From contig JAFCMP010000490.1 in assembly GCA_017506865.1 (NCBI GenBank), positions 1 through 64,000 on the forward strand: a stretch of 64,000 bases of DNA. The letters run 5' to 3'. Under the pieces are notes generated by a model. The model made no database searches. It was not told where the DNA came from and was given only the letters and a program-made list of their open reading frames with translations. Numbering within the stretch: position 1 is the stretch's first letter; each line of letters opens with the position of its first letter. Below, piece by piece: positions 54,801 through 60,800 of this stretch. The position numbers and the translations under genes are program-made. The DNA comes from Tribonema minus. Lineage: Eukaryota > Sar > Xanthophyceae > Tribonematales > Tribonemataceae.

Positions 54801-57800
54801 TTGTCACCTAATCTAACCCTAGTGCTTAGGGTTAGGGTTAGGGCCTCAGCACCGCAACAGCATACTGTTCTTACAAGCATACAGCAGCTGCAGCACCAGT
54901 TGGCTCGTGCGGTATACGACTGGAAGGTTTCGAAGTCGTAATGTTGATGTTATAATTGCTCTGCTGCCGCAACCATGGTGATGCTCATGTTGATCTCATT
55001 CATGGAATTGCTGACAAACTGGTATGTGGCTCTTTTTGTCGACAGTTGCTGTTGCTGCAGCCCACGCATGCATTGCTTGAGCTATTCATCCGCTTTCAGG
55101 AAGCAAGCTGCGGAGCATCAGATACACTGGTCCAGTGCTTAATCCTTCTACTGCTGCCATGTTCACTGTCTTGCTATGGCAGCTGTTCTTTGTGCTCGAC
55201 TATTGCGCTGGTGGTGAGCTCTTCTTTCACCTCGGAAAGCTCGGGAAATTTCCTGAAGACCGGTCCAAGGTCAGTTTGCATTCAGGGTCGCGCAATGTAC
55301 ATACAGGCTCATGACTGTATACTGGTGTGTAGTTATGAGGCCTATTCTTGTTTCAGAAGCTTGCAACATTCATGATGGAGGTTGTCACTTTTGGTTTTCG
55401 ATTGAAGTTCCGCACCATGTTCTCGTGCGGTACTGTAGTGTCATTTCTGTAATGCGGATTGCAGCCTTGTGATTGTGTCTGCGTCCTTGCACAATCCACA
55501 CATCTTGTCATTGTGTAGGGTATGATTGCATGAGCCTCACGTTGTTATGGTGCCCCTGCTGCTTGTTGGGCTGCTGCAGTTCTACGCTGCAGAGATCGCA
55601 TTGGCGCTAGAGCACGTGCACAAGCTAGACATCGTCTACAGGTGAGAGCTGTTACAACTGTTGAAACTGTGTAGTGCAACGGCCATGTGTTTCGTACTAC
55701 GTGTATGCCCTCAGCGAAATGTGTGCCTTTATTGGCGACTTTTCTGTACTATCCATGGGGCTGAGCATGTGGCCTCTTGTGTAGAGCACTGCACCAGCGA
55801 ACTTCACATCTCTATCAGGCATGAAGGCATTGCCTCTGCAAGCTCTTCTCTTCTTTATCATCCCTGTTGGTCTGTCCTGCTGCGACAGGCTAATACTCGC
55901 TAGACATCAAATAACGTAGCGTGCCGATGTCGTGTTAATTGCCTCGTATGCGACCCGTCATCTTGCACCACGCACTGCTGCAGGCAATTCGCCCAGCTAG
56001 CTGATCACCTGGCTCTGCTTCTCGGCCTATGAGCTCTTGCAAACCTGACGCTTTCGAGATCTTTAGCCCCATACAGTAGCGTCTTTCTGGATGTAGCTCA
56101 GCTCACCTTTCGTTGGTCGTTCGCGCAAGCTTGTTAATTGTCTATGACCTCCAACTCTAACCCTACCCCTCAGTCTCTGACTCCGATGAAGACCTGTAAT
56201 TCCAGAGATCCGAAACCGGAAAATGTTCTCTTGGACGGCGAAGGACCATCTGACTCACCGACTCTGGCATTCGTGCGCACTCGTTCGCCATATGTCAACC
56301 CTAACCCTCAACCCTAATGCCAACCTTATTTGTTAATGAATAGAGATCTGAAGCCCGAGAACGTTCTCCTTGACGGCGAAGGAAACATCAGACTCGCCGA
56401 TTCTGACATCCACACTTAATGGCTGTATGTTAACTCTTAACCCTCAACCCTAATGCTAACCCTAATTCGTTGAGCAGAGATCTGAAGCCCGAGAACGTTC
56501 TCCTTGACGGCGAAGGACACATCAGACTCACCGATTTTGGCCTGAGCAAGGAGGGCATCACCAACAACACAAGCGGCGCTCACTCCTTCTGTGGCACACC
56601 AGGTGTGACTACTGTCTATGAGACCAGCCATGTATAGTCAGAGGGTCATTCCCTGCTAGGGTGGAGGTCATGCGGACATGCATGTCAGGGTTGAGGCGTT
56701 GATGTGCATTGGGAAGTGCAGGCATGCCTGACAAGGCGAGGGTTAGACTAATATGTTGACTATCTCTTATAGTGGCCTGCGACGACATTGTTGAGAGGCG
56801 AAAATGCCATTTCAGCCCCAGGTTTGCACATTATAAACACATCAAGCATGGGCAGGCCTTTGGTGCTGACTTGCAGGTACTTGGTTCTTCATCACTTGTG
56901 CCTTGCAATGTGTTGTGCAATCAGCTCTCGCCAGGTGCATCGCAGCAGTCAGATTTGATGATGTGCACCAGGCCACAGTGTGTGCTGACCACTTCAAGCT
57001 GACGTGCCTTCATGCCATGCTGCTGCTGCTGCTGCTGCTGCTGCGTTTAGAGTACCTGGCGCCTGAGATTCTCAACAGGCAGGGACACGGGAGGGCGGTG
57101 GACTGGTGGAGCCTCGGAGCGCTGCTGTACGAGATGCTCACAGGTATGTATGTATACACACACATGATTGTATGCATACCCTAGGGTTAAAAACAGGCAG
57201 GGGCGGTGGATTGATGGAGTTTGGAGCGCTGCTGTACGAGATGCTCACAGGTATGTATGTATGTAATTGCATGTAAGTATGTGGACGTGTGAAGTTTATC
57301 GCAGTACAGAGCAGTGACAGAATCATGTCAAGCTCATCGGGCACCGTGGATGTGGAGCCTCGGAGCACTGCTGTATGTCACAAACGTTTACATGCGTGCC
57401 TCAATCTGTGTACGACAGGACCTGCCAGTGACCCTGGGGAAGTTGTGTTTGCTTTGGAGCTGAACGATAGTGGCAAAGTTGTTGCAAGCACTCCACAGTC
57501 AGGACGAGTACGAGCAACGAGTACTTGAGTACTACTCCCCGAAAAATTGAAATTTTAAACGAGTACTCGAGTACCACTCCTCGAAAATTTGAATTTTTTG
57601 AAACGAGTACTCGAGTACTACTCCCCCAGAGAATGAAAATTTACCCGAGTACGAGTACTTACTCGAGTACTTGACGAGTACTCGAGTACTTGACGAGTAC
57701 CAGGAGCACTCAACGAGTACAAGAGTTAATAAAAGTACAAGAGTACTAAACGAGTACTTGGAGCACTAAACGAGTACTAAAATTGCGACGAGTACTTCAC

Positions 57801-60800
57801 AGCAAACAGTAATAAAGTACATATATGTTGTTGTTACAATCATGTATGACTTCATACACAAGCCCTCACAACATCCATGCGTGCAATGCCATGATATCTG
57901 TGCTGCCATATGTCCTCCAAACGTGCGCCTGATCAGCGAAAGGATGCAAGATCATGGACAGCATCTGTGTTTGAGGAAATAAACATGATGTATCATGCTT
58001 TCTCTTTTAAAAAGAATAACTTCAACATCAGGAAGGGCTGATCTCTGCACCAAAAATCAGCTCTGGGTATGCCAGCTGATGCGGGATGCCGCAAGAGTCA
58101 AACTGTCTCAGACAACCTGCTACCTCACAAGTTAAAGTGTATGTTTTCCTCGTAGCAGCACTGCAATGTGAGGCGCCAGGCTCCGGGGCTGCAGCACGAG
58201 ATATCGCATCCCTATTGCCAAGTCGCAGCAGTTGCGATACATTCAGCGACGGAAGGCTTAGGAAAATAGCCGCTCGCAGCACAGACGATAACCCAAGTTG
58301 CTTCATGAAAGCAACTTATAAGGCCTACATTAGTATGCTCGTGCGATCAATGTCCCACACCCTGCTCTCCTGCTCTCGCTCGCTGATCGTTCTGCGAGCG
58401 GAGAACTCAAGGTTCACCGCGGTGCTGCATATTGCTCGTGCTGCAAGCTGGGTCGTATCAGCACAGCACCGCGACATCTCCAGTACAGTGTAGAGATCTT
58501 GCATCAAATATCAGTACCTTGATGCCAACAGCAATGCAACAGCAATGCACCATGCGCCCATGCACGAGACGCAAAAATCCGAGGCCTCTTCGGCGCATTA
58601 TCGTCAAAAGTACTCGTCAAGTACTTGTTCAGTACTCGTGCAGTACTCGTTTTCCTTGAAAGTACTTGTACAGTACTCGTGCAGTACTCCTTTTCCTCAA
58701 AGTACTCGTCAAGTACTCGTGTAGTACTCCTCTTTCCTCGAGTACTCGTCAAGTACTCGAGTACTTACTCGTTTTAGGTGTACTCCCGGTGCCTGTCGGA
58801 AGAATGCACGAGTACTCGAGTACTACTCCCGACATTTTGAAAATTTAAACGATTAAAAGAGTACTACTCGTTGTCTTAAAACGAGTGGTACTCCTACTCC
58901 TTACTCCTCAAAAGTACTCGTACTCATCCTGACTGTGAAGCACTCCTTCAACAAGCTTTTGTCTCTCAGATGCACGTAGTTCTAGGCTTTTGCTGTCGCT
59001 CAATATCATAGTGTTGGTACGTCTGTGCTGCACTCAGGTGTAGTCTGATATGTCGTTTTTCTACTTTATTGCTGTTTGCCATGGTCACCTTTGGGGCGAG
59101 TCATTCAATTCAGCACCCCCTGCTGCTTTGCCCAGGCGGAAAATGCTTTGTTTTTTGGTATGCTGGCATTGCGCTGGGCCGTGACTAGCATCTGAGAACG
59201 TGTGCCTCAATCATGAAGGTTGATTTGGGTGTGCCTGACAGCAGCAACTGCACATACATGGCTACAACGCCAGATTTGTTCAAGCGAGTACTTCAGCTCC
59301 TTTCTCTAGAGGGATTTCACCTGCTGATGTTTGTGCATGGCACACACACAGAACTTGCTGCACTTTTTCATGCCAGTTGTGAGACTTGCCTTTTGTGGTG
59401 TTTCGTGAACTGGCTAATTTATGCTTGGACTGTTTGCTCGTTGTGCGCCTGTGCAGGCCTACCGCCGTTCTACTGCAGAGACCGGGAGAAGCTGTTTGAC
59501 AAGATCAGGCGTGCGCAGCTCACATACCCCAGGTACGACTGCTGTCTGTGTGTCCAACTGGGGGTCGTTTCCTACAAGGAAGGAGGTCATGCTGATTCTT
59601 GTCAGGGTTGAAGTTGATGGTGTTGGTTGGTGTTTATTAAGAAGTGCAGGCCTATTGTGCAGGGCGACCAACACAGTATCCCCCATCGTGGCCCGCGAAG
59701 ACATCAAAGTTAGGATGAGGGTAGCTTCGAGCTGCTACTACCTAGTGCTAGCATCTAAACCTCGCAGGTCGACAGCAATCCACCAAACTGACACACTGTT
59801 GCAGTATGAGGTGCATGGTTGAAGTTTGTCGCCTTAATAGGTGTTGGCTGTATCTGTATACACATGCGAACTGCTGAGCAGTGCTGACAGATTGAGAATG
59901 CTTGTGGTCCTTTGGGGCATGAAGGCATCGGTCGTCAGGATCACGGTGACATGGCGCAAATCGCACTGGTGTTCAGCACTACACTAGTAGTTTCTACGTG
60001 ACAACAATTAAGGTTCAGGTGGTAAGGGACGCTGGCACGGTCATCATCTTCACTTTGTCCCTATTGTGAGGCGAACATACCAATATCAGCCTCCAGGTTT
60101 GCATATTGAAAACACCTGAAGCGTGGGTCGGCCTGGATTCTGGCTTGCAGGTTGTAAATCGCCACCTGTGACTTGCCATGTTCTGTGCAATCAGCTCTCA
60201 CCAGGCGCACCGCAACTGATGTCTGCCTTTGCTGCGTCTCATCACCTCTAATTGCACTCTAGTGAATGAGTGTGTACCAGGGTTAGGGTTACATCTGACT
60301 ATTTTTATTTTATCTCATACATTAAGCACACTATTACCGGACACTGAAAAACTACCCAACTCACGTACCACCTTTGTTGGCAAACAGCCAAACCCTTGGA
60401 AGCTTGTAAAAATAAGATTTATGTATTTCTGTCTCCAGGGTCGACGATGCGTGTCAGAGCACAGTGCCGCTTGCCACCACAGGCTGACGTGCCGTCATGC
60501 CATGCTGCTGCTGCTGCGTTCGGTGTCGTTGTTGACCGTGCGCGGTACCAGATATCTCTCAGAGAGCTGTCAGGACATTCTGCATGGGCTACTGACACGC
60601 GACCCAAGTCTGCGCCTGGGCAGCAGCACAGAAGATGCCAGTGAGGTATGACTTTTTGTAGCAACCTCATTTTCTTGCTATTCACCAACCATGTATATAC
60701 ATGCTGTTGTCGTCTGTCGTCATGTAGAGAGGCAACACGGTGCTATTCTCTGTTGTTGCATTGGCAGGTTTGTGCCAAACAGTTTCTCTTTCATATTCTG

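Follow-up and report, generated by a model that had tools for sequence, protein, structure and literature searches.

Two introns of one protein kinase gene in an ochrophyte appear to be old copies of a single intron

Duplication of an intron within its own gene has reportedly been seen in Drosophila Xdh, and recently gained introns are said to occur in Caenorhabditis. Here we describe two introns, I11 and I13, of a kinase gene in a window of 64,000 bases, the whole stretch of DNA analysed (bases 1-64000 of contig C490, in a genome of 158 Mb and 554 contigs), which on the evidence of their sequences appear to be old copies of one intron. The gene occupies positions 47942-62328 on the plus strand and encodes a PX domain followed by an AGC-type kinase with a C-terminal extension. 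In Oikopleura dioica, four nearly identical intron pairs, each pair lying in one gene, have been described, and reverse splicing was suggested for them (Denoeud et al. 2010, as cited in PMC3879977). Like those pairs, I11 and I13 share a gene; whereas the Oikopleura pairs are nearly identical and so recent, ours is 76-85% identical in blocks, carries later insertions and is one pair in one gene.

In fungi of the Mycosphaerella type, intron transposition moves the sequence as a unit among unrelated genes and produces large families (Torriani et al. 2011, as cited in PMC3443670 and PMC3488318). The sequence of I11 and I13 likewise appears to have moved as a unit, but there are two copies, both in one gene. 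The introner elements of Micromonas, in the account given in PMC3879977, are sense-direction intron copies with splice sites; I11 and I13 share this orientation and the splice sites, but number two against the approximately 6,100 introner copies. Intron transposition is a proposed mechanism with a whole-intron signature, for which a 2012 review counts 14 unambiguous events (PMC3443670). The present pair belongs with those of Oikopleura but is older and comes from a different eukaryotic group; cases of this sort are rare, though already known.

The exon structure is supported by P0001, a EukProt transcript product of 724 amino acids with the Pfam domains PF00787, PF00069 and PF00433. Its match to the spliced 424-residue kinase part rounds to 100%; two residues near the C-terminus and a few further upstream differ from the gene model, and P0001 therefore comes from another isolate or allele. 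From the motif and the domains of P0001 we take the kinase to be a member of the AGC group. Since the next protein matches include P0004 of the yellow-green alga Vaucheria (80%) and proteins of brown algae (75-78%), the organism is an ochrophyte. The model has 16 introns, hence 120 intron pairs, and P0001 spans both junctions of interest, the two introns having been spliced out of its transcript. The original prediction gave the phases of I11 and I13 correctly and numbered them 11 and 13; in our model they are the 12th and 14th introns. The two introns and their exons are as follows.

56478-56602, plus strand: exon before I11 (RDLKPEN...CGTP)
56603-57050, plus strand: I11, 448 bp, phase 1, between GTP and E of the GTPE motif; GT..AG; spliced translation in agreement with P0001
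57051-57143, plus strand: exon after I11 (EYLAPEIL...EMLTG)
59457-59532, plus strand: exon before I13
59533-60551, plus strand: I13, 1019 bp, phase 2, within the Arg codon before YLSES; GT..AG; spliced translation in agreement with P0001
60552-60645, plus strand: exon after I13

Comparison of I11 with I13 by blastn gives three collinear plus-strand blocks, and an ungapped match of the first 24 nt precedes them.

56603-56626, plus strand: donor-end block of I11, 18/24 identical to I13 59533-59556
59533-59556, plus strand: donor-end block of I13, partner of I11 56603-56626
56643-56704, plus strand: block 1 of I11, 77% identical to 59562-59619 (48/62, E 2e-8; intron coordinates 41-102 in I11, 30-87 in I13)
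59562-59619, plus strand: block 1 of I13
56791-56944, plus strand: block 2 of I11, 76% identical to 60064-60214 (119/156, E 2e-26; 189-342 in I11, 532-682 in I13)
60064-60214, plus strand: block 2 of I13
56974-57032, plus strand: block 3 of I11, including part of the CTG run before the acceptor, 85% identical to 60460-60517 (50/59, E 6e-14; 372-430 in I11, 928-985 in I13)
60460-60517, plus strand: block 3 of I13

A chain in which long gaps cost little connects donor base 1 with the acceptor and aligns 338 columns of the 448 nt of I11, 282 of them identical; the resulting 83% is gap-optimised and flattering compared with the 76-85% of the blastn blocks. Homology extends from the first donor base of I11 to about 3 nt before its acceptor, at the end of the CTG run. 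Past GCTGCGTT, I11 has TAG and ends, and I13 runs 28 nt further to its own acceptor. The predicted order of shared blocks, from the donor to near the acceptor, is thus borne out.

The pair scores 104 bits by blastn, against a maximum of 33.7 in 1000 dinucleotide shuffles, so the alignment is far better than that of shuffled introns. The chain score of 236.5 compares with a mean of 21.2 (sd 7.9, maximum 42.2) in 200 two-base-block shuffles, and with a maximum of 84.1 for I11 against 8 of the gene's 14 other introns; that maximum belongs to the last intron and is probably due to a common CTG run. When all 16 introns were compared by blastn (E <= 1e-3, low-complexity filter on), plus-strand matches occurred in the I11/I13 pair only, the sole further match being one of 33 bp on the minus strand over the CTG run of I11. 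The 18/24 agreement at the donor is equalled by 1 other of the 120 donor pairs (the 4th and 13th introns, both GTATGTATG-like), but beyond the consensus, at donor positions 7-24, 14 of 18 bases match, a value reached in 1 of 20000 shuffles. The shuffle tests put the similarity beyond doubt and speak against chance or simple-repeat likeness, and a conserved functional RNA finds no better footing: Rfam returned two minus-strand matches that fall well short of the threshold (E 1.2 and 2.9, with one located in I11), a further scan of sequence with I13 but without I11 gave none at the gathering score, and the folding energies of the 170-176 nt cores, with z 0.28 for both, are no better than those of shuffles. 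A structured RNA was rejected on these scans and energies, and, in spite of the CTG run common to both introns, we regard either explanation as very improbable.

The surrounding exons proved unrelated, as had been proposed: flank agreement is limited to CCAG and scattered letters, which splice consensus and codons can explain. CCAG|GT stands at the donor junction of each intron. Starting at the donor and stopping before the exons, the similarity includes no copies of exon edges, in agreement with the proposal that an intron was copied as a unit and not together with its exons.

I13 is the longer intron, as the original prediction said, but the gain of about 220 bp given there does not hold: the excess is 571 bp, mainly three blocks of 357, 195 and 28 bp, with smaller gaps on both sides.

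59705-60061, plus strand: 357-bp block in I13 only, an insertion in I13 or a deletion in I11
60282-60476, plus strand: 195-bp block in I13 only, containing a 48-bp piece also on contig C199 (36 bp of it on C511)
60521-60551, plus strand: 3' end of I13, with 28 nt lacking a counterpart in I11 (60521-60548 if the final TAG of I11 is paired with the I13 acceptor, 60524-60551 if it is paired with the CGG after GCTGCGTT)

A whole-genome DNA search with I13 found nothing elsewhere that matches the 357-bp block. The 195-bp block was probably inserted into I13, because its 48-bp piece recurs on C199 and C511; queried alone, the block gives the same two outside matches as the full intron. This piece (60354-60405) is 96% identical to the C199 site, with 36 bp 94% identical to the C511 site, and is perhaps filler or a repeat fragment. 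By eye, the 195-bp block has CCAGG on each side and could itself be read as AG|GT...AG|G. No source for the 28-nt tail emerged within the gene (best matches scoring 20 and 17) or in intron 13 of the nearest paralog, on contig C157 (16), shuffled tails scoring 19.1 on average and 26 at most. By eye, a 7-nt duplication might have shifted the acceptor of I13.

The original prediction compared the pair with introner-type gain, and a start of similarity at the splice donor, as in introners, would suit two survivors of an old introner or transposon family. However, whole-genome searches with both introns revealed no run of donor-to-acceptor copies at unrelated exon sites. I11 as query (E <= 0.001) found itself and I13; I13 (E <= 10) found itself, three I11 blocks and two matches of 36-48 bp to its 195-bp block; neither found a third copy. 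The first 198 bases of I11 (E <= 10) matched only themselves, a search of modest sensitivity, since even the I13 block with 77% identity escaped it. Searches with three patterns, 29, 31 and 35 bases long and each tolerating 3 mismatches, found just the two copies in the genome, and the backward control found none. Against the introns of the C157, C412, C513 and C190 kinase loci, I11 and I13 gave only CTG-type and short weak matches. An introner family in this genome is therefore not supported by the DNA and pattern searches, which strongly diverged members could escape, and we consider descent of the pair from such a family quite improbable.

Intron gain by tandem duplication at AGGT is also described in the review PMC3443670. 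The CCAG|GT at both donors recalls it, as does the genome's habit of making many short tandem duplications over splice sites. Exon ends including the splice site are repeated in the adjoining intron at 3 of 32 edges in the window gene and at 4 of 14 edges in seven introns of the C157 paralog, compared with 0 of 480 and 0 of 84, respectively, when edges are set against non-adjoining introns at the same score cut (36, chosen by us; scores of 34 and 28 were obtained for two further C157 edges, and the coordinates used for one C157 intron were off by one base). Such repeats reach four copies; they lie at 53948-54347, 56204-56539 and 57093-57262 in the window and in 4 of the 7 introns examined in the C157 paralog (L039). 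The pattern looks like intron growth through tandem duplication over splice junctions.

I11 and I13 do not fit the usual form of this process, since the unit lacks exon sequence and two exons stand between the copies. Their adjoining edges score 12 and 12 in I11 and 16 and 16 in I13, well under the cut. A longer tandem duplication, of a segment comprising I11, exon, intron and exon with a CCAG|GT junction, followed by deletion of the duplicated exons and the rest from I13, would draw on the same tendency, and its exons would have been selected against because the unit shifts the reading phase. However, no remnant of the two exons was found in I13: their four 35-nt edges score 22 at most, under the cut of 36, in I13 and in every other intron that lacks a copy (the edges cover 70/93 and 70/76 nt of the exons), and a long duplication would have had to be followed by near-complete deletion. 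We hold this history to be improbable.

Comparison with other kinase genes bears on the age of the two positions. Eleven genes, the window gene included, were read after being picked from 106 exon-level matches; most are named here by contig. The nearest paralog (C157:1022-1030 kb, minus strand) encodes the transcript protein P0002. Its exon runs unbroken through CGTPEYLAPE, with no intron at GTP|E, and the neighbouring introns on either side are kept; precise presence/absence changes thus occur at the I11 site. At the I13 position it has an intron of the same phase, with several copies of the end of the preceding exon. By eye, a possible relic exon copy in this paralog's preceding intron was considered as a remnant of I11 and set aside as too weak. 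The deep paralogs C412 and C513 carry a phase-1 intron exactly at GTP|E (CCAG|GT...AG|AGTACC) and none at the I13 position. Of 10 readable genes, 3 have the GTP|E intron (window, C412 and C513) and 7 lack it (the C157 paralog, C190, C510, C544, C246, the gene at C157:63.5-68.5 kb and C95), C52 being unreadable there. Of 9 genes readable at the I13 site, 2 have an intron there (window and C157 paralog) and 7 do not (C412, C513, C190, C510, C544, C246 and C52); two genes are unreadable at this site. Because C157 also uses the I13 position, and C412 and C513 the I11 position, either site could have been intronic before the copying.

In a tree of 13 sequences, C412 and C513 are joined at 100, C190 is loosely placed (25, 33) and the C157 paralog stands beside Vaucheria P0004 at only 59, a support too low for the tree to establish that the window and C157 genes split within this lineage. 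Their exons differ at 59 of 119 four-fold sites (Nei-Gojobori dS 0.86), with 0 amino-acid differences from RDLKPEN to the I13 site. Taken alone, the 15-24% divergence of the I11/I13 blastn blocks, set against these four-fold sites, would place the copying after the paralog split, and the copying is perhaps younger than that split.

We think it likely that a whole intron was copied, by way of either RNA or DNA. An insertion into an intron need not start at the donor, and a reverse-spliced intron must, which favours copying of the whole intron. As to the particular form, the explanation that we prefer, by no wide measure of confidence, is that one intron was copied whole and once into the position of the other, by intron transposition within its own gene. 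A complete intron, from donor to acceptor, would have been copied to a second splice position: the excised intron would have entered a spliced mRNA from the same gene by reverse splicing at a favourable CCAG, the intron-bearing RNA would have been reverse transcribed, and the cDNA would have recombined with the gene. Both copies would then have drifted, and I13 would have taken up more DNA, including the 28 nt beside its acceptor. The RNA route is slightly favoured; it is inferred, as are the single event and its date.

The direction of copying may be read either way. Transfer from I13 to I11, a true gain of I11, would explain the C157 paralog without I11; transfer from I11 to I13, with sequence replaced at an existing position, would explain why the I11 position is common to the deep paralogs. 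We lean slightly towards the former. The majority of suspected reverse-splicing events are reported at previously intronic positions (PMC3443670), and the use of GTP|E as an intron site in C412 and C513 fits this bias.

The main rival is a patch copied at the DNA level between two pre-existing introns, in which repair of a break switched template at the common CCAGGT and returned in or near the CTG run before the acceptor. The CCAG|GT at both donors and the end of homology just past a CTG run would suit it, as would the presence of an intron at each position in some paralog; the 28 nt could be a remainder of the former intron 13. Nor is similarity over a distance rare in itself, the window having further distant direct repeats among the matches listed (4885-5011 with 15538-15666, 13224-13324 with 63612-63712, and 16239-16332 with 23553-23649). 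Yet it would take a coincidence for such a patch to come within about 3 nt of I11's two ends, and no second plus-strand pair exists among the gene's introns. In 34 loci outside the window (145,294 bases, mostly about 3.5 kb each; 24 of the 34 are under 4 kb and most were chosen as kinase genes), 13 loci carry direct repeats of at least 55 bits, at spacings of 55-720 bp, with no wider spacing. The data here do not separate the DNA patch from the RNA route; we regard the patch as possible but on balance unlikely.

Several points weigh against transposition through RNA and its recent date. No observed feature is specific to RNA; only the end product is visible. The 28 nt beside the I13 acceptor have no counterpart in I11, so that the similarity does not run exactly to the 3' end in both introns. 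A recent gain of I11 would make the parallel use of GTP|E in C412 and C513 a coincidence. Finally, the orthologous 11th introns of the window gene and C157 retain 128 bp, away from the exon copies, at 80% identity; surviving intron pieces can therefore look young, and dating after the split is weakened. A variant of transposition by way of RNA would have the excised intron re-enter its own mRNA and the cDNA rewrite the gene, the paralog having lost the same intron precisely by the same cDNA route. We consider this variant unlikely.

Other features of the window were recorded. CCCTAA telomere repeats open the contig (1-510), and short telomere-like CCCTAA strings are dispersed, by eye, in the introns of both kinase genes. 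A further gene close to the telomere (6873-7273) shows the pattern of repeated exon ends described above, an exon piece ending in about GCCACCAAG|GTGAG being present in three similar copies. The region at about 8000-12000 is GC-rich (63-66%, above most of the window) and retroelement-like by eye. An inverted pair of 777 bp, 98.3% identical, at 43253-44028 and 46730-47505, encloses about 2.7 kb and resembles a transposable element of recent date. In the third intron of the kinase gene, 120 bp (50102-50221) match the beginning of the GTP|E intron in the C513 kinase (L041 3420-3540) at 88% identity; the C513 partner starts a few bases past the donor, and the match may be a dispersed repeat or a further transfer of intron sequence. 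About 1.4 kb of the 13th intron (57510-58910) resembles a fold-back insertion and has GAGTACT-rich ends in both inverted and direct orientation.

The origin of new spliceosomal introns is still debated, and clear cases of an intron copied as a unit are few. If the variant with precise loss in the paralog were true, both footprints of one mechanism would be present in one ochrophyte gene pair. A pair of introns in the same gene, at positions that differ between paralogs, makes a case that can be dated and polarised by comparing relatives.

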